A stretch of DNA of 22,107 nt, taken from IMG/VR virus record IMGVR_UViG_3300000265_000007, positions 15,581 through 37,687 of that record; one strand, written 5' to 3'. Position numbers and translations under genes: made by a program. This document shows positions 1,793-18,709 of the stretch, one piece after another. Every line of letters starts with the position of its first letter. The stretch's first letter is position 1. Under the pieces are notes generated by a model that worked only from the letters and a program-made list of their open reading frames with translations, had not been told where the DNA came from and ran no database searches. The DNA comes from a virus.

Positions 1793-2239
1793 ATGGAACA
1801 AATAATTTGTAGTGGTGCTCTATTCTATTCGTTGACAACACAACGTTTCTTATTCTTACACCGTACACAATCAAAACAAAACAATGTTTGGGGTCTTGTT
1901 GGTGGAACTAACGAAGATAAAGAAATCCCTTACAAAGCTCTGCTACGTGAAGTTGAAGAAGAACTTGGCAGTATTCCAAAAATTATTAAATCAATACCAT
2001 TAGAAACATTTGTAAGTAATGATGATAAGTTTCAATTTCATACTTATTTGTGTGTTGTAAAAGATGAATTTCTACCTGTACTAAATGACGAGCATAACGG
2101 ATATGCTTGGGTTAGTTTTCAAAATTGGCCAAAGCCATTGCATATGGGATTACGCAACACATTACAAAATAAACAAAACTTAACCAAACTACAAACAGTA
2201 TTTCAACTAGTTTCGTTATTACAAGAATCGGACATTTAA
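1793..2239 (+). CDS. Nudix hydrolase
   Basis: A complete Nudix box lies at residues 38-59: G38, five residues, E44, seven residues, R52-E53-V-E-E56-E57-L-G59. The Glu cluster binds the divalent metal used to cleave nucleoside diphosphate-X bonds. The length (148) is typical of a single-domain Nudix enzyme, and the strand before the box (VWGLVGG) is also typical. The substrate cannot be read from sequence. The gene opens the heptose cassette and shares one base with hldE (TAATG), so hydrolysis of a nucleotide sugar, of nucleotide by-products, or of mutagenic nucleotides are all possible. No clear Shine-Dalgarno sequence precedes the ATG. An in-frame stop three codons beyond the preceding codons fixes the start here. 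Confidence 0.9.
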   Translation: MEQIICSGALFYSLTTQRFLFLHRTQSKQNNVWGLVGGTNEDKEIPYKALLREVEEELGSIPKIIKSIPLETFVSNDDKFQFHTYLCVVKDEFLPVLNDEHNGYAWVSFQNWPKPLHMGLRNTLQNKQNLTKLQTVFQLVSLLQESDI

Positions 2240-3384
2240 TGAATAAGGTATTAGTAATCGGTGATGTAATCATCGACAAATATATATACGGAACTTCAAC
2301 ACGGATTAGTCCTGAAGCACCTGTGCCTATAGTTAATCTTGGAAGTGTTTCAACATCTTTAGGTGGTGCAGGACTTGTTTATGAAAATTTAAAAAGCCTA
2401 GATGTTGATATAGAACTATTTGAAACTAATCAACCTAGAAGTATTAAAACTAGAGTAATCTGTGACGGACATTATATTACACGGTTAGATGAAGATGAAA
2501 CTGCAAATTCAAATGCAGTCTTAGATGAAGTATTAAGTAGTGATTTTTCTAAGTACGATTATGTTATCCTAAGCGATTACAATAAAGGTGTACTAGATAA
2601 CGCAAAACAGATTATTGCACATATTAATAGTCAAGGACCTAAAGTAATTGTAGATCCAAAACGTTATGCATGTGACTACGAAGGTGCTTGGTTAGTTAAA
2701 CCTAATAATAGTGAATTTACTAAATTTGAATTTGACGAATGGCAAGGTAATATTATTACTACTGATGCAGGACGTAGTGTATCTGCTACAATAGATAATA
2801 TTGAATATAATATTCCTGTTGAACAAGTTGAAGTATCAGATGTTACAGGTGCAGGAGATTGTTTCCTTGCTACGTTTGTATATGCACTAACAAAAGGTTA
2901 CACACATAAACGCTGTTTAGAATTGGCTGTCAAAGGTGCTACCGAAGCAGTCAAACATGTAGGCACACATATCATAACAATTGATGATATTAATGATACT
3001 ATTGTATGGACTAATGGAGTGTTTGATATACTGCATATAGGCCATTTAAAGCTACTAAGACACGCACACACGCTTGGAAAACGCCTCGTGGTGGGCATTA
3101 ATAGCGATGCAAGTGTAAAGCGTTTAAAAGGCGAAACTAGACCCATTAATGACGAACAAACACGCAAAGCCGCATTGTTAGAATTAGGATTTATTGATGA
3201 GGTAATCATATTTGACGAAGATACACCGTTAGAAACTTTGAGTAATATTATGCCCAATATAATTGTTAAGGGTGGAGATTATACAGTTGATACAGTAGTA
3301 GGAAATGAACTAGCAGAAGTTGTTATTTTTCCAACTATTGCAGGTGCAAGTACAACTAAAATTATAGACGAGATTAGAAAATGA
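2239..3384 (+). CDS. hldE: HldE-like bifunctional heptose-7-phosphate kinase / heptose-1-phosphate nucleotidyltransferase
   Basis: Two domains in the order of bacterial HldE (RfaE). The N-terminal ribokinase-like domain (1 to about 250) has GDVIIDKY (8-15), RISPEAPVP (22-30), LGGAG (41-45), LSDYNKG (111-117), VDPK (138-141), KPNNSEF (154-160) and DVTGAGD (201-207), with D207 as the expected catalytic base. The C-terminal nucleotidyltransferase domain (256-381) has TNGVFDILHIGH (258-269), NSDASVKRLKG (288-298), RPIN, EDTP and VKGGDY. In bacteria HldE phosphorylates D-glycero-D-manno-heptose-7-phosphate at C1 and, after GmhB removes the 7-phosphate, joins it to ADP. E. coli HldE is 477 residues; this one is 381. 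The loss falls after the LGGAG motif, before the GAGD motif and in the interdomain linker, while the motifs are kept. It overlaps hldD by 4 bases (ATGA), implying translational coupling. Confidence 0.93.
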   Translation: MNKVLVIGDVIIDKYIYGTSTRISPEAPVPIVNLGSVSTSLGGAGLVYENLKSLDVDIELFETNQPRSIKTRVICDGHYITRLDEDETANSNAVLDEVLSSDFSKYDYVILSDYNKGVLDNAKQIIAHINSQGPKVIVDPKRYACDYEGAWLVKPNNSEFTKFEFDEWQGNIITTDAGRSVSATIDNIEYNIPVEQVEVSDVTGAGDCFLATFVYALTKGYTHKRCLELAVKGATEAVKHVGTHIITIDDINDTIVWTNGVFDILHIGHLKLLRHAHTLGKRLVVGINSDASVKRLKGETRPINDEQTRKAALLELGFIDEVIIFDEDTPLETLSNIMPNIIVKGGDYTVDTVVGNELAEVVIFPTIAGASTTKIIDEIRK

Positions 3385-4199
3385 ATATTTTAATTACAGG
3401 ACATGAAGGCTTTATTGGTCAAAACCTTGGAGCATACTTACAATCTAAAGGACATAATGTTGAGGGCTTTGAATGGAAGCCTAACATTATACCAGATCCT
3501 GAACCTTATGATAGAGTAATTCATTTAGGTGCTATTAGTAGCACTACTGAACGTGACGTTGAAAAAATTATGGAACAGAACTATGAATTTTCAATGCGTC
3601 TATTGCAACTATGTGATCAAAAAGGAACTACATTTATGTATGCTAGTAGTGCTAGTGTATACGGTGATAAGTTTGAAGAAAATGCTAAACTACAACCACA
3701 AAATGGTTATGCATGGAGCAAGTATTTGTTTGATAGATTTGTAATGCAAGTTCCAGAGTTTATGATTAATGTACAAGGATTTAGATTCTTTAATGTATAT
3801 GGCCCAGGTGAAGAACACAAAGGCGACCAACAAAGTGTATTTGGCAAGTTTGAAAAACAAGCTAAAGAAACGGGAGTTATAAAAGTGTTTGAAGGTAGTG
3901 ATAAAATAGATAGAGATTTTATCCATGTTGGTGATGTATGCGAAATTATTGAAAAGTTTATTGATGTTGATAATACAGATATATGGAATGTTGGTACAGG
4001 CACACCTCGTTCATTTATGGACATTGCTAAACTGTATGCTAAAAAGTATAATGCTAAGATTGAAGAAATACCTATGCCAGAAAACCTTAAAGGGCAGTAC
4101 CAGTATTACACCTGCTCTCACAATAAAAAGTTAATTAATAGTATAGGTGTTCATAATTTTAGAACAATTGAGGAGTATGTAAATGCCAGCAAGACATAG
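3381..4199 (+). CDS. hldD: HldD-like ADP-L-glycero-D-manno-heptose 6-epimerase
   Basis: Extended short-chain dehydrogenase fold with an NAD(P)-binding GHEGFIG (7-13) in place of the usual GGAGFIG, the HLGAISSTTE segment (48-57), MYASSASVYG (86-95), and the Y110-x3-K114 catalytic pair. HldD-specific stretches are well kept: GFRFFNVYGP (133-142), EHKGDQQSV (145-153), FEGSDKIDRDFIHVGDV (170-186), NVGTG (203-207) and IPMPENLKGQYQ (230-241). The family inverts C6 of ADP-D-glycero-D-manno-heptose to the L-glycero form used in LPS core. At 272 residues it is about 40 shorter than E. coli HldD, mainly in the loop after the first strand-helix unit. Its position directly after hldE supports the specific assignment over a generic sugar epimerase. 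Confidence 0.92.
   Translation: MNILITGHEGFIGQNLGAYLQSKGHNVEGFEWKPNIIPDPEPYDRVIHLGAISSTTERDVEKIMEQNYEFSMRLLQLCDQKGTTFMYASSASVYGDKFEENAKLQPQNGYAWSKYLFDRFVMQVPEFMINVQGFRFFNVYGPGEEHKGDQQSVFGKFEKQAKETGVIKVFEGSDKIDRDFIHVGDVCEIIEKFIDVDNTDIWNVGTGTPRSFMDIAKLYAKKYNAKIEEIPMPENLKGQYQYYTCSHNKKLINSIGVHNFRTIEEYVNASKT
4170..4175 (+). promoter_or_regulatory. Strong ribosome binding site for the cupin gene
   Basis: GAGGAG ends 7 bases before the ATG at 4183. It sits inside the end of hldD and fixes the cupin start, giving a 17-base overlap with hldD. It is the best Shine-Dalgarno match in the left cassette. Confidence 0.7.
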
Positions 4200-4596
4200 T
4201 GGTAAAGTAGACAAAGGTTGGGGATATGAATTAATCTGGGCCACTAACGATCAATACTGTGGTAAGATTATGGTATTTGATAGAGTTGGTGCTAAGTTTA
4301 GTATGCACTTTCATAAAGAAAAAGACGAATCATGGTTTGTAAACTCAGGTTCATTTAAGTTACGATATATTGATACATCAACTGCATTAGTAATGGAAAG
4401 AGTTTTAAACTCCGGCGATACATGGAGAAATCCTCCATTAATGCCGCATCAATTAGAAGCATTAGAAGCCGGTAGTAGTATTACTGAAGTAAGCACTCCT
4501 GACTCTATTGAAGATAATTATCGTATTGCTCCAGGTGATAGTCAACCGCCACCACCACAACAAGAGATTGTTAATGATCCCAATACACAGGCGTAA
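4183..4596 (+). CDS. Small cupin-fold protein (sugar isomerase/epimerase-like)
   Basis: A 137-residue single cupin domain. Motif 1 supplies H42-x-H44 and E49 (SMHFHKEKDESW) and motif 2 supplies H89 (MPHQ), a complete 3-His/1-Glu metal site. The WGYELIW opening and the motif spacing resemble the small cupins annotated as mannose-6-phosphate isomerase-like. The last 20 or so residues are a Pro/Gln-rich disordered tail beginning PPPPQQE. The gene overlaps hldD by 17 bases, so it is very likely part of the heptose pathway, perhaps isomerising or epimerising a sugar. A cupin cannot replace the phosphatase GmhB by any mechanism known to me. Exact reaction unknown. Confidence 0.8.
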   Translation: MPARHSGKVDKGWGYELIWATNDQYCGKIMVFDRVGAKFSMHFHKEKDESWFVNSGSFKLRYIDTSTALVMERVLNSGDTWRNPPLMPHQLEALEAGSSITEVSTPDSIEDNYRIAPGDSQPPPPQQEIVNDPNTQA

Positions 4597-5170
4597 GTTA
4601 GATCTAAATTTAAGTCAATTAAAACATAATTGTAATTTTGTTTATAAGCAAATTATAGACGAGATTGCAATTCCTAATCAAGAAATTGATACTAAACACA
4701 CATCAATTCCAACGGCAGTAAGTCAATACTATAACTTGTTTACAAGTATTATGCCTGGTATGTTTGAACTACAACGTGATATTAGAAACGAATTTAAAAA
4801 CAACATTCCGCATGATGAAAGTCTAGAGTACTGGATTGTTGGTTGGTTAAATTATTGGCCCAAACAAGGAACAACACTTACCTGGCACGGACACGAGTAC
4901 GGAGATGATGATAATTGTTTCCACGGGTACTTAGGTGTACAATGTGAACCATCGCAAACTATATATCGCAACATAGGTGAAGAAGCATTAGAAATTGCTG
5001 TTGAAAACAAAAACGGACAGTTAGTTATTACTAACAGCAAAGGTGTTGAACATATGACTAGTGATTGGAAACAAGATGATCCTCGTATTACTATTGCGTT
5101 TAATATACAACCTAGAGAAACTGTTTTACAAGAAGTAGGAAATAAACTTAATTATTATGTCGGACTTTAA
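4574..5170 (+). CDS. Putative 2OG-Fe(II) oxygenase (first of a pair)
   Basis: I use the ATG at 4574 (198 residues) rather than an upstream TTG at 4508, which would read deep into the cupin gene; the chosen start overlaps the cupin by 23 bases. The double-stranded beta-helix pattern is visible: WHGHE with H105 and H107 (104-108), a strand FHGYLGV (116-122), then H160, and PRITIAFN with R171 (170-177). This fits the iron-binding histidines and the 2-oxoglutarate-binding Arg of phage-type 2OG oxygenases. Which of H105/H107/E108 bind iron cannot be settled by eye. The role is unknown. Such enzymes hydroxylate proteins, nucleic acids or small molecules. The context suggests a link to sugar or virion modification, but that is inference. 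Confidence 0.7.
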   Translation: MIPIHRRKLDLNLSQLKHNCNFVYKQIIDEIAIPNQEIDTKHTSIPTAVSQYYNLFTSIMPGMFELQRDIRNEFKNNIPHDESLEYWIVGWLNYWPKQGTTLTWHGHEYGDDDNCFHGYLGVQCEPSQTIYRNIGEEALEIAVENKNGQLVITNSKGVEHMTSDWKQDDPRITIAFNIQPRETVLQEVGNKLNYYVGL

Positions 5171-5732
5171 AGAGCTATTTTCTGTTCCTATACTAGAACA
5201 TAATGTTCCGGATCGTATTGCAGATGACGTTGAACAATTTGTAGTACCACGTTTAAAACTTATACCAAGACCCGACAACAATGCTCCGCATGGTACAGAT
5301 TATTTTGAACCTAACAAAGTAGTACATTTAATGAATGATGTACCAGAACTGTTTAGCGAAATACAAGACTGTGTTAACAAGTTTCAAGACGCATGTCATA
5401 TTAAACAACTAAAAGAAGCTAATCAATACAATTGGTGGACACAAGATTATCACGAAGGCGACATACATAACGAACATGAACACGGTATGAATCAAATATC
5501 TGGAGTATACTGGGTAAGAGCAAATGAAAATGCTGGTGGGTTATGTTTTAGAAATCCTAATCCGTTTGTCGAATATTCATCCTGGATGGATGCAAAATAT
5601 GGATGTCAAGAATACGAATTCCAACCTATAAAGGGTAAACTATTATTGTTCCCTTCTTACTTAAAACATGCAGTAATGCCTAGTAGTAGTAACGTTGTAC
5701 GCACTACTATTGCTTTCAACGTAGTGTATTAA
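5157..5732 (+). CDS. Putative 2OG-Fe(II) oxygenase (TIGR02466-like, second of a pair)
   Basis: 191 residues with the layout of small phage 2OG oxygenases: HNEHEHG (104-110), SGVYWV (115-120), GGLCFRNPNP (127-136), GKLLLFPSYLKHAV (160-173) and RTTIAFN (182-188). Candidate iron ligands are H107, H109 and H171, with R182 as the 2-oxoglutarate anchor. The motif SGvYyv...FPs.L.H...R..iaFN is the hallmark of the TIGR02466 family. It overlaps the preceding oxygenase by 14 bases and its stop codon overlaps the stop of the convergent giant gene. The two oxygenases are of similar length and share motif order, but differ in most of their sequence, so this is an old duplication or two independent gains. 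Substrate unknown. Confidence 0.8.
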   Translation: MSDFKELFSVPILEHNVPDRIADDVEQFVVPRLKLIPRPDNNAPHGTDYFEPNKVVHLMNDVPELFSEIQDCVNKFQDACHIKQLKEANQYNWWTQDYHEGDIHNEHEHGMNQISGVYWVRANENAGGLCFRNPNPFVEYSSWMDAKYGCQEYEFQPIKGKLLLFPSYLKHAVMPSSSNVVRTTIAFNVVY

Positions 5733-13452: not shown

Positions 13453-14481
13453 CTACATTCCGAAAGCAACAGCCATTGCTGATGCCCTGCTGTCCACATA
13501 TTTTTTGTTAGTAACTGTCGTAGCCGATGTTGGTTTTGCTTGTACTTGTGCTGTAGCAAACGTTGCATTAGCCGGAGTTACTGCTCCAATTGTAGTGTTA
13601 TTTATTGTTCCTGAGGTCGCTATTAAGTTATTAGTGGTAACTGAGCCTGCCTTAGATAAACCAATGTTTACACCGTCTATATTACCGCCACCCGATGGAG
13701 CAACAGTTAATCTACCATTGCCTGCTGGGCTTACATTTACATCTGCATTTAAACCTGTAAAGTTTGAAGTTGAATTTACTGTTAATAAATTAGCAGTAAT
13801 ATCCATGTTACTAAGTGTTCCACCGTTTGCTGGATTAATAACTACTGTTCCCGAACTTCCACTAGGTGCAAGTGTAATAACTGCATTTTCGCCTTGGGCT
13901 GTTAAATTGCCTGTTGTTGTAATTCTACTAAAGTTACCAATACCACTAACTAGTGGGTCAATAACTGTAATTTCTACTAATGGTATTTGATCACCATCAC
14001 CATACCATAATGATGCTGGTGTGTTATCAGGTACACTAAAAGTTAATTTACCTTCAAACTTACTTTGAGCGTCAATACCTGTTACTGTTGTAGTACCATC
14101 TAAAGATGTGTGTGATAGCCCTGAAGTAAATGGTTGGTATACTGATCCATCAAAGCTATAAAAATTCAATGTCATGTTACCAGTAATATCACCGGCTTCG
14201 TTTAATTCTCTTAAAAATAAATTAAAAACATAACTACTTCCCCTAGTTAATTCAAACGTTGGGTTTGCTAATAAGTTAGGTTCGTCATCTGGATCTATTT
14301 TGCCATCAATAGTAAAACTGTTACCAGCTTGACGGAATAAAAAGTCACCAGCAGTATCTACAACATCTTCTGTAACTGTATATGTAAGTGTACGAAGTTG
14401 TACATTACCTACGTCATCGACTATGAAACCCGGGCTTTTAAAGCCATACTGAGCTTGGAAGGGTGATTTAATTACTGCCAT
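13453..14481 (-). CDS. Virion structural protein (342 aa), tail fibre-associated
   Basis: It opens with SPFQAQYGFKSPGF and a segment VQLRTLTYTVTEDV, followed by a beta-sandwich-like region (about 75-180) with LTRGSSYVFNL, SGLSHTS and LTFSVP. The second half is a low-complexity Asn/Thr/Ser/Gly region built from short strand repeats (LTAQGENAVITLAPSGS, VVINPANGGTLSNM and LTVAPSGGGNIDGV are related). The C-terminus reads NKKYVDSRASAMAVAFGM, a typical phage fibre-protein ending. I recall this class as a common structural protein of marine T4-like phages; the exact place in the virion is unknown. A GGAGAA Shine-Dalgarno at 14487-14492 supports the start. It lies 8 bases upstream of the giant gene, so the two are probably co-translated and assembled together. 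Confidence 0.8.
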   Translation of the reverse strand: MAVIKSPFQAQYGFKSPGFIVDDVGNVQLRTLTYTVTEDVVDTAGDFLFRQAGNSFTIDGKIDPDDEPNLLANPTFELTRGSSYVFNLFLRELNEAGDITGNMTLNFYSFDGSVYQPFTSGLSHTSLDGTTTVTGIDAQSKFEGKLTFSVPDNTPASLWYGDGDQIPLVEITVIDPLVSGIGNFSRITTTGNLTAQGENAVITLAPSGSSGTVVINPANGGTLSNMDITANLLTVNSTSNFTGLNADVNVSPAGNGRLTVAPSGGGNIDGVNIGLSKAGSVTTNNLIATSGTINNTTIGAVTPANATFATAQVQAKPTSATTVTNKKYVDSRASAMAVAFGM

Positions 14482-14506: not shown

Positions 14507-16207
14507 CTAGCTTTGTACCACTATTAATCCATGCATTGCTCCATGGAATTGACAGTTATAATGATAAGTTCCTACTGCTGAAGGTGTCCAAGCTACTGAT
14601 CCTGAAGATGATGCACCTTGTCCTGTTGCTAATGGATTTGTTACAATATTACCTGTACCTGTTGAGTTTTGTGCTTTAATATAGAATGGATGTCCTGGTG
14701 CATTCATAGTAAATGTAACTGTATCATTAACATTAATTGTTACCGTTTGGTTAGCACCATTTACTGTACCTAATCTATCTGTGCCGTTTAATGTATATGA
14801 ACCTGAGCCGTTATTTGAAGTTGCTATTGTATAACTGTTTCCTGGTGTTGTACTTGTATCAATAATAGCAATACTCTTAGTTGATTCTCCATTGTCTAGT
14901 GCAATTACAAATCCTTCATCGCCTTCTGTTGTTGCATCAGCTGTTGCAGTAAGTGTAATACTATCCGTTGTTCCAACAACAAAGTTTCCTGTTAATGCCG
15001 CGCCACCTATGTCTGCACCTGTTACACCTGAAATTGTATAAGGTAAAATAGTACCATTTTCAACATTTGATGTTGAAAGTGTAATTGTAAATACTCCGCC
15101 TTCGTTAACTGTGTTAGTAGATGATCCTAATGTATAACTTGGAATAATTGGACTTAAACTCGTGTCGCCGATTGCAACTTCAACGATTGTACTTGTACCG
15201 TCAATTGACATTTGGAATGTTTCTGCACCGTCTGTTAATAGATCTTCAGTTGCAGTATAAACAATTGATTCTACAGTTCCAATCTCAAAGTTACCTGTTA
15301 AGTCTGCTCCGCCTATATCTGCTGAGTCAACTCCTGTAATTGTATATCCAACTAGTGTGCCGTTTGCAACGTTTTCAGAAGTTAATGTAATAGTAAATGA
15401 TCCACCTTCATCAACTGTTGCCGCACTAGTTGTAAGTCCGTAACTGATAGCTGGTGTTGTACTTGTATCTTGGATAACAATACTAGTAGTAGCTTGATTG
15501 TTATCAAGTTTAACTGTCATTACTTCTTGACCTTCTGTTGCTAAGTCAACAGTAACAGGGAAACTAAGAATATCTGTTGTTCCAACAATAAATGTTCCTG
15601 TAAGATTTAATCCACCTATATCTGCACTTTGTATACCTGAAATTGTATAAGGTAAAACTGTACCCGCAAGTACATTTGATGTAACTAATTCTACTGTAAC
15701 TGTTTGTCCAAGTTCTCCAGTATTTGTAGTGCTTGGATTTAATGTATAAACTGGTGCGTTTGCCGCAACGTTTGATCCTAATAGTGTTGCTGTAGGTTCG
15801 TTCTGTGTTGCATAATAGTTTGCTGAGTAAATTACTTTTGCTCCTGCAATAGCAGTTGAGTCATCTTGTACTCTTGGATATGCCATAAGTTTAAAGTACG
15901 AATCTGTAACTTCAACTTCTAATTGTAATAGGTCATCTCCTAAATTACTACGTCCGTAAACAACAATATTTGCTTTACTAGTACTAGCTGTTGCCATTGC
16001 TTTAATTACTTCTTTGCGTTCACTATTTACATCACATGCAATAGTGTATTCTACACCAAAGTAACTACCAACGTACCAACGGTCTAATTCTGTTCCTGCC
16101 TCTACTAACGAATAGCTTGGCCCTGCATAAGACAAGTTGGTTCCATTACGAAACTCAATCGTACTATTTTGTCCGCGTCTAAAGTATTTGGTGATATCGA
16201 AGCTCAT
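14507..16207 (-). CDS. Virion protein with three Calx-beta-like repeats and a C-terminal cupredoxin domain
   Basis: 566 residues in three parts. Residues 1-150 are an alpha/beta N-terminal domain starting MSFDITKYFRRGQNSTIEFRNG; I know this type only as unnamed structural protein sequence. Residues 154-250, 256-351 and 358-453 are Calx-beta-like repeats (VNEGGxFTITL, PYTISGVxxADIGG, LTGNFxVGT, TEGxExF, IxDTS). Residues 457-566 form a cupredoxin-like domain: VNDTVTFTM, GHPFYIK with H506, then TYHYNCQFHGAMHG with C552, H555 and M558. This is the His/Cys/His/Met set expected of a type 1 copper site, though the C-x2-H-x2-M spacing is tighter than plastocyanin's C-x2-H-x4-M. No signal peptide is visible. 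Its neighbours are structural genes, so it is probably in the virion; copper binding is inferred. Confidence 0.8.
   Translation of the reverse strand: MSFDITKYFRRGQNSTIEFRNGTNLSYAGPSYSLVEAGTELDRWYVGSYFGVEYTIACDVNSERKEVIKAMATASTSKANIVVYGRSNLGDDLLQLEVEVTDSYFKLMAYPRVQDDSTAIAGAKVIYSANYYATQNEPTATLLGSNVAANAPVYTLNPSTTNTGELGQTVTVELVTSNVLAGTVLPYTISGIQSADIGGLNLTGTFIVGTTDILSFPVTVDLATEGQEVMTVKLDNNQATTSIVIQDTSTTPAISYGLTTSAATVDEGGSFTITLTSENVANGTLVGYTITGVDSADIGGADLTGNFEIGTVESIVYTATEDLLTDGAETFQMSIDGTSTIVEVAIGDTSLSPIIPSYTLGSSTNTVNEGGVFTITLSTSNVENGTILPYTISGVTGADIGGAALTGNFVVGTTDSITLTATADATTEGDEGFVIALDNGESTKSIAIIDTSTTPGNSYTIATSNNGSGSYTLNGTDRLGTVNGANQTVTINVNDTVTFTMNAPGHPFYIKAQNSTGTGNIVTNPLATGQGASSSGSVAWTPSAVGTYHYNCQFHGAMHGLIVVQS
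14849..15748 (-). repeat. Three tandem Calx-beta-like domains
   Basis: Three units of about 96 residues at bases 15748-15458, 15442-15155 and 15136-14849. Each carries a (V/G)(D/N/E)(E/L)G...(F/V)T(I/V)xL strand, an ADIGGxxLTG core and a C-terminal DTS. In characterised Calx-beta domains this fold is a beta-sandwich found in adhesion and extracellular proteins, often binding calcium; several acidic residues that could do so are present here. Confidence 0.8.
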
Positions 16208-16897: not shown

Positions 16898-18709
16898 TTA
16901 ATTGTTTACTGTAATTAGCTTATTGTATTCTGGCAAATAAAGATATTCAATATCACTATTACGTAGTGTACGTACAGCATCATCTAGTGTTTCAACTAAC
17001 GGTTCGCCACCTAAGTTAAAACTAGTATTGAAAATTATACTAGTACCAGTACGTTCTTTGAACGCTTTGATAATGTCATAGTAATGTTTGTTTTGATCTC
17101 TATTAACTGTTTGAATTCTACATGTGCCATCTACGTGAATAATACTTGGAATCTTTTCAGCAATACCAGGTTGACAGTTTACAGCATACATCATTGTTGG
17201 TGAACTTTTCATTCCACGTAAGTCAAACCATTCATGTACATCTTCTTCTAGTATACTACCTGCAAACGGACGGAAGTATTCTCTACGTTTAACTTTGTTT
17301 ACATAATCTTTACCATTAGGATCACTTGGATCATACATAATAGTTCTATTACCTAATGCACGTGGACCGTTTTCACTACGTCCTTGGAATAATGTAACAA
17401 TCTTTCTATTAGCAAGTAAGTCTACAGCTTTAGTATTATCTGCATCTTCAACTGTTGCATTATACTTTTCTACAACTGCATTAATTTCTTCGTCTGTATA
17501 ACTGTAAGCTGGTCCTTCATATAGTGTTTCTTGCTGTTCTTGACGTTTGTTACTTTTAGTTAAACGTCTATGCATTAACATTGCACCACCCATTGCTGTA
17601 CCTGCATCGTTACTTACTGGTTCAACATAAATTTCAATGCCTTCGTCTTTTAATTCTTCTAAGTAATGATAGTTAGCAACACAATTAAGTCCGTATCCGC
17701 CACTAATAACTACTTTGTTCTTACCTGACATTGCAACTGCTTTGCGAATTAAATTTGCAACTTCTGTTTGGCTTTCTGTTTGTATTTGATAAGCCATGTT
17801 ACGTCTGTTTTCTAAATATGTTACATCTTGATTTTCTTCATCGCCATGATTAGTTAAGTATGTGTGCATGTTGTAATTAACATGAGCACCATTAGGATAC
17901 GTTGGAACAATAACATGTCTATCTGCTTGTGATGTCATTGTATCATGTCTAAATATTTTAGGTGCCGGACTGTCTGCTTTACCGTATGGAAATAATCCCA
18001 TAGTTTTACCTGCTTCAATAAAACTGAATCCACAGTACTCTGTAACTGCTTCATACGCTTTAACAATACCAGCATTTTCTGAAATAACTAATTCGTGTGT
18101 TTGATCCTTATCTTCGTCATACATTTCACTTGAAAATTCAGGCATCCATGCACCCATAACAGGTCCATTAGCACCAATGTGTTTGTATAATGTTTTAAAG
18201 TTATCTGGATAGTTGCAATCGTAAATACTTTCTGTTTCCCAAACAGTAGTAGGAACTCCGCCGATATCTAATGTAATAAATGTTCCAGCACCATCAACAA
18301 TAACTGCACAAGCATCTTCAAATCCTGAACGATAAAAAGCACAAGCGGCATGTAACTTGTGGTGTATGTTTGACATGTCAATTACTTGAGGATGATTTCC
18401 TCCTTGGTATGCTTCACGTTTAATAAGTCCTAGCTTACGTGCAAGTCCTGTATAAACATCATCGCCACTAAAGTCTACTTTGCCAGCAGTTTGTTCTAAA
18501 TTTTGTGTATGTGCAACAACTAAAAAGTCTAGCTTGTCTGTATATTCAAGTATCTTAATCATACTTGCATATGGGCCGCCATCGTATTTTTGTCTTGTTA
18601 GGCGTTCTTCTTCAATTGAAAAAACAATTTCACCATCTTTTAATAAACATACTCCGCCGTTATGTCCTCTAGCAATTCCAGCGATCCATACTGATTTTTT
18701 ACTTGGCAT
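16898..18709 (-). CDS. NodU/CmcH-family O-carbamoyltransferase
   Basis: 603 residues, full length for the family. The N-terminal kinase-like Kae1-type domain has SIEEERLTRQK (31-41), NIHHKLHAACAFY (114-126, with the conserved His residues), VDGAG (138-142), GKTMGLFPYG (234-243), SGGYGLNCVAN (336-346) and EPVSNDAGTAMGGA (363-376). The C-terminal domain has GRSENGPRALGNRTI (443-457), REYFRPFAGSIL (476-487), HVDGTCRIQTV (525-535) and NTSFNLGGEP (561-570). The family makes carbamoyl-adenylate from carbamoyl phosphate and ATP and transfers the carbamoyl to a hydroxyl. Targets include sugars (NodU), antibiotics (TobZ, CmcH) and, in some phages, hydroxymethylcytosine in DNA. No base-hydroxymethylase is in this window. 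It overlaps the SGNH gene by 11 bases, with GAGG 10 bases upstream of the ATG. Confidence 0.95.
   Translation of the reverse strand: MPSKKSVWIAGIARGHNGGVCLLKDGEIVFSIEEERLTRQKYDGGPYASMIKILEYTDKLDFLVVAHTQNLEQTAGKVDFSGDDVYTGLARKLGLIKREAYQGGNHPQVIDMSNIHHKLHAACAFYRSGFEDACAVIVDGAGTFITLDIGGVPTTVWETESIYDCNYPDNFKTLYKHIGANGPVMGAWMPEFSSEMYDEDKDQTHELVISENAGIVKAYEAVTEYCGFSFIEAGKTMGLFPYGKADSPAPKIFRHDTMTSQADRHVIVPTYPNGAHVNYNMHTYLTNHGDEENQDVTYLENRRNMAYQIQTESQTEVANLIRKAVAMSGKNKVVISGGYGLNCVANYHYLEELKDEGIEIYVEPVSNDAGTAMGGAMLMHRRLTKSNKRQEQQETLYEGPAYSYTDEEINAVVEKYNATVEDADNTKAVDLLANRKIVTLFQGRSENGPRALGNRTIMYDPSDPNGKDYVNKVKRREYFRPFAGSILEEDVHEWFDLRGMKSSPTMMYAVNCQPGIAEKIPSIIHVDGTCRIQTVNRDQNKHYYDIIKAFKERTGTSIIFNTSFNLGGEPLVETLDDAVRTLRNSDIEYLYLPEYNKLITVNN

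Follow-up and report, generated by a model that had tools for sequence, protein, structure and literature searches.

A cupredoxin module with a type-1 copper ligand set in a probable particle protein of a T4-like phage and in tail proteins of marine phages

Gene neighbourhood and protein layout

The window analysed here, a stretch of 22,107 nucleotides, comes from a virus record of 37,687 bases (IMG/VR IMGVR_UViG_3300000265_000007, positions 15,581 to 37,687). It encodes a T4-like tail sheath stabiliser, a tail-assembly-chaperone-like protein and a 2571-aa protein that matches PHROG virion structural protein families, and these genes mark the virus as a tailed phage of the T4-like kind. In the whole window, the T4-type late promoter octamer TATAAATA occurs 0 times, against 3.4 occurrences expected by chance. 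Genes of the sugar/surface-modification type lie at 1793-5732 and 16898-18709. They encode heptose kinase/adenylyltransferase-like, nucleotide-sugar epimerase-like and oxygenase-like proteins, as well as a carbamoyltransferase identified by Pfam, and this gene content resembles that of P-SSM2.

The open reading frame under study occupies exactly 14507-16207, the position described from the sequence earlier; it lies on the minus strand and encodes 566 aa. It is followed by the gene for a 342-aa protein with tail-like features (13453-14481, minus strand) and then by that for the 2571-aa protein. The 566-aa protein starts with an N-terminal domain, continues with three Calx-beta-like repeats and ends in a cupredoxin domain. 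For the location at a tip named in the earlier note, what is seen is the C-terminal position of this last domain in the chain. Its orthologues on viral contigs share 61-89% identity over the full length, and all three parts are under purifying selection (dN/dS <0.45). A signal peptide is not apparent by eye. Judging from its context, the protein is probably an accessory protein on the phage particle.

The cupredoxin domain

The C-terminal 110 residues (residues 457-566; 14510-14839, minus strand) had been read in the earlier note as a cupredoxin domain, and profile matches and a confident predicted fold both bear this out. A single sequence gives little indication of it: the domain scores 19 bits with Pfam Copper-bind and 17.7 bits with Cupredoxin_1, both under the cut-offs. 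Such weak single-sequence matches to Pfam and the PDB may explain why the domain goes unannotated. When a profile is built from 20 diverse phage copies (alignment A2; 36-91% identity to the query and 50% mean column identity), type-1 copper proteins lead the matches, with E-values of about 5e-5 and above. Amicyanin, rusticyanin, Cu nitrite reductase, plastocyanin, auracyanin and azurin are all found, while the few unrelated matches are weak and all lie at E >0.05.

The earlier note had also recommended structure prediction for residues 457-566. The AlphaFold2 model, based on a 63-sequence alignment, has a cupredoxin fold with a pLDDT of 98.4, and every residue is at or above 90. As a Greek-key beta sandwich it matches solved cupredoxins over the whole domain, which places it within the fold. 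Superposition on the N-terminal cupredoxin of a three-domain CuNIR gives a Z-score of 11.3 and an rmsd of 1.9 Å over 93 residues, and rusticyanin aligns over nearly the whole domain with a Z-score of 10.2. Foldseek also supports the fold, with an E-value of 5e-6 for these closest folds. The domain evolves under purifying selection, with dN/dS values of 0.15-0.43.

The four residues singled out as candidate ligands are present at the positions first reported, all encoded on the minus strand. H506 (codon 14690-14692) is the first His ligand and lies in a GHPF motif; C552 (14552-14554) is the sole Cys of the domain; H555 (14543-14545) is the second His ligand, and M558 (14534-14536) is the axial Met. 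Judged by alignment and the model, these residues occupy the four ligand positions of a type-1 copper site. C552, H555 and M558 align with the ligand loop of amicyanin. In the model, one strand ends at Cys552, the loop after it holds His555 and Met558, and His506 is found just before another strand. Type-1 sites are normally built this way, with the Cys at a strand end, one His and the Met in the following loop, and the other His before a strand. The Cys-His-Met spacing had been noted as tighter than in plastocyanin. This is true, since the plastocyanin loop is C-x2-H-x4-M, but it is not anomalous, because C-x2-H-x2-M is the spacing of amicyanin.

The residue that follows the first His is a Pro, invariant in both A2 and A3, whereas most single-domain blue copper proteins have an Asn there. 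The details of the site may, on this sequence evidence, differ from those of blue copper proteins. Two further histidines, H549 and H559, flank the ligand loop (YHYNCQFHGxMHG, within 14510-14839, minus strand); they are invariant in the orthologues of the 566-aa protein, but copies of the module elsewhere do not share this invariance.

Conservation and loss of the ligands

Only nine columns of A2 are invariant, and these include all four ligands (20/20 for each). The chance that four residues named beforehand would all be invariant is about 2e-5, calculated as C(9,4)/C(108,4). Copies fetched with the CxxHxxM pattern were left out of the ligand counts. The exception is H506, which lies outside the search pattern and is invariant in 63/63 sequences.

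A motif-independent set of 51 copies with <80% identity was assembled from tblastn searches of phage records, profile searches of whole records, and second copies found beside a fetched one. The full HCHM set is present in 45 of these; the other six comprise two DSRM copies, two MNDA copies and two that are broken or partial, although strongly degenerate copies may be under-counted since the search profile includes the ligands. The axial Met is kept as tightly as the other ligands (47/49). Loss of ligands in full-length copies is confined to two lineages, DSRM and MNDA, in which three or four ligands have changed jointly and the remaining domain still matches. The MNDA copies (M, N, D and A at the four positions) are found in giant proteins of about 1921-4937 aa in close relatives of this phage (L174, L175, L176 and L177). 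In these relatives the orthologue of the 566-aa gene has an intact copy, and the ligand-less copy belongs to a different gene.

Since the domain can survive without its ligands, something else must explain why they are retained elsewhere, and a metal is the simplest explanation. This pattern of substitutions argues that the metal site, and not the fold alone, is under selection. It also disfavours the idea, raised in the earlier note, that the domain is a structural relic, given that 45 of 51 divergent copies keep the ligands and that the full-length losses affect three or four of them together. A single Cys is found in 90 of 114 module copies, and a disulfide inside the domain is impossible in these. 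Among individual phages, S-CAM1 has one copy that lacks the second half and a second one in which Lys replaces the first His.

Spread of the module

The earlier note had considered a metal-binding domain on a particle to be unusual. The cupredoxin domain is not peculiar to this phage, since it is present in 111 phage records and in at least 521 confirmed viral-contig matches. In S-SM1 (SSM1_103) and Syn9 (gp102) it is fused, with all ligands present, to a baseplate protein annotated as gp9, and a gp9-type baseplate fusion occurs in S-RIM2 as well. S-PM2, by contrast, gave no match. The S-SM1 virion comprises 41 proteins (PMC3037559). Annotated tail fibre or spike proteins of P-SSM2, S-CAM1 and Bellamy also carry the module, as do subtilase-like proteins and a collagen-like protein. 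Of 73 phage protein clusters, 33 have it as their final domain, and 11 contain more than one copy. From this sequence distribution, the module is a mobile, swappable add-on of marine phage tail proteins.

The module is not specific to phages. Marine Flavobacteriales carry it, several on apparent lipoproteins, and its role may therefore be generic. Three marine Bacteroidetes proteins (L115, L117 and L120) have lipoprotein-like N-termini and the module at the C-terminus.

A cyanobacterial host for the phage was considered and is unsupported, as psbA is absent from nine long module-bearing contigs, some of which are fragments.

The 342-aa protein encoded next to the 566-aa open reading frame probably contains a cupredoxin-like domain at about residues 42-174, without copper ligands. 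Its orthologue in L217 matches the cupredoxin region of PHROG 677 (5.7e-6). A profile of the 342-aa protein, made from an alignment free of cupredoxin rows, matches A2 with a probability of 78% and an E-value of 1.9e-5 and A3 with a probability of only 6%, which is suggestive.

The N-terminal domain and the repeats

Upstream of the cupredoxin lie the three adhesion-type beta domains recognised earlier. They were found as three homologous repeats of about 100 aa each that align to one another (residues 152-453; 14849-15754, minus strand), and they are modelled as Ig/Calx-like sandwiches resembling CBD12 of NCX1/CALX, among other Ig-like folds. Pfam Calx-beta matches 8 of 11 orthologues, with a best E-value of 9.9e-5. 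The copy in the window has an E-value of 0.99 and scores 9.9 bits, against a PF03160 gathering score of 27. Given this below-threshold match and the CBD12-like fold, the repeats are termed Calx-beta-like. They are a probable spacer.

The N-terminal domain (residues 1-151; 15755-16207, minus strand) is the best-conserved part of the protein, with 89% mean column identity and dN/dS values of 0.05-0.19. Modelling gave no confident fold for it (pLDDT <50). A tblastn search of phage records found no copies, and no PHROG match was found. Comparison with solved structures gave a designed protein at E 0.005 as the best match and weak matches to allophycocyanin, none of them convincing.

A stand-alone form of this domain, about 140 aa long, is found at the same locus in L213-L220 (for example, L217:5004-5426). 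In L216 and L217 it sits between the carbamoyltransferase and the 342-aa gene. The stand-alone protein stops where the Calx repeats would start. The three repeats and the cupredoxin are thus an optional extension of the N-terminal domain. Other arrangements also occur. In more distant phages the N-terminal domain is joined to fibre-like C-termini (L234), or is followed by a different middle region and a C-terminal HCHM cupredoxin (L239 and L250). It looks as if the cupredoxin has been joined to this domain at least twice, or has been kept through shuffling. The N-terminal domain resembles an anchor that receives outward modules, and we infer that it is probably the anchor to the particle.

Proposed function and alternatives

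The reading favoured here, with a probability of roughly two in three, is that the 566-aa protein is an accessory particle protein composed of an anchor, a spacer and a cupredoxin that holds a metal, likely copper, for structural or adhesive use. The N-terminal domain of about 150 aa would join the protein to the particle, and the three Calx-beta-like repeats would hold the cupredoxin outward. H506, C552, H555 and M558 would bind a metal, most likely copper, as in amicyanin. The ion might come from the host cell or, after lysis, from seawater. Its main effect would be to lock the ligand loop near the C-terminus of the module, which would be exposed and serve in adhesion or structure. Much of the earlier interpretation is retained in this proposal, namely the complete and conserved type-1 ligand set, the Calx-beta-like repeats and the virion-type gene set, while the relic and the unusual spacing are dropped.

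It is improbable that the fold serves only as a scaffold for adhesion or structure, in which packing and not metal accounts for the retention of the four residues. Ligand-less copies (MNDA and DSRM) are maintained in the same phages, and probably in the 342-aa protein too, as such a scaffold would allow. However, a domain that tolerates ligand loss would not be expected to keep all four ligands in 45 of 51 divergent copies, to hold them invariant at 50% mean column identity, or to lose them jointly, three or four at a time, in full-length copies. Purely structural binding of zinc or another divalent metal is also quite unlikely. Cys-His-His sets can bind zinc, and apo-cupredoxins load zinc on overexpression, but the axial Met is as conserved as the other ligands, which better fits copper.

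A redox-active blue copper centre is possible, and the full type-1 ligand set, including the axial Met, and the close structural relatives, which are electron carriers or copper redox enzymes, both speak for one. It could act in electron transfer or redox sensing at adsorption or ejection, or deliver copper to host uptake in analogy to the 'Ferrojan horse'. Yet there is no partner protein and no adjacent redox gene, and the Ferrojan horse is an idea about iron that is itself a hypothesis. Attachment to gp9, fibres and collagen-like proteins fits a generic module better; the presence of the module on so many unrelated structural proteins makes a stabilising or adhesive role likelier than a dedicated redox pathway. 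As the function of the domain, redox activity is thus given a low probability. The odds are similarly poor that the 566-aa protein acts outside the virion, released or displayed by the infected cell. The Flavobacteriales lipoproteins with the same module would be in keeping with this, but no signal peptide is apparent by eye, the gene lies within a run of virion-type genes, and elsewhere the module is part of annotated baseplate and tail fibre proteins.

Under the favoured reading of a metal-holding particle module, its recurrence in marine phage tail proteins suggests that particles may carry copper. If the sites are loaded, metal-bearing cupredoxins would be routine on the particles of abundant marine phages, and it could be asked whether phage particles matter for ocean copper. 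A far-reaching version, in which many marine T4-like phages have working particle-borne blue-copper centres for infection or for copper exchange with the host, and virions form a seawater pool of protein-bound copper, is considered unlikely. The module-bearing phages include cultured ones with known hosts, such as P-SSM2, Syn9 and S-SM1.

Comparison with known systems

Amicyanin is the best sequence match among solved structures and has the same C-x2-H-x2-M loop. It differs in having Asn after the first His, where the phage domain has Pro. The phage domain is part of a large multidomain protein and has no methylamine dehydrogenase partner. The amicyanin equivalog TIGR02657 was rejected (22.2 bits against a cut-off of 110.2), as was the plastocyanin equivalog TIGR02656 (21.2 bits against 87.85). 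The closest folds are rusticyanin and the N-terminal cupredoxin of CuNIR (Z 9-11, rmsd about 2 Å over 93-95 residues), with 19-33% identity to the phage domain in structural alignments. Rusticyanin is about 40 residues longer and is an electron carrier.

Phages are known to encode another cupredoxin. P-SSM2 and Syn9 carry petE, a phage plastocyanin (PMC2984593), and both also carry the module described here. Cyanophage PetE is a soluble photosynthetic electron carrier, whereas the module forms part of probable virion proteins and has the C-x2-H-x2-M loop in place of C-x2-H-x4-M. Phage structural proteins decorated with Ig-like or Calx-beta domains likewise combine an anchor domain with optional beta-sandwich repeats; in the 566-aa protein, by contrast, the presumably outermost domain has a putative metal site.

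No description of a phage cupredoxin module was found in the open-access literature, and what appears to be new is that a domain of the type-1 copper type recurs as a module in phage structural proteins. The assignment, if true, would allow domains in several PHROGs of tail proteins or of 'unknown function' to be named after a function. The module is found in PHROG 9158, 27200, 15006 and 677 (E 5e-24 to 8e-10). PHROG 9158 and 27200 lack a functional assignment, PHROG 677 is annotated as a baseplate wedge tail fibre connector, and none of the four annotations mentions a copper site.
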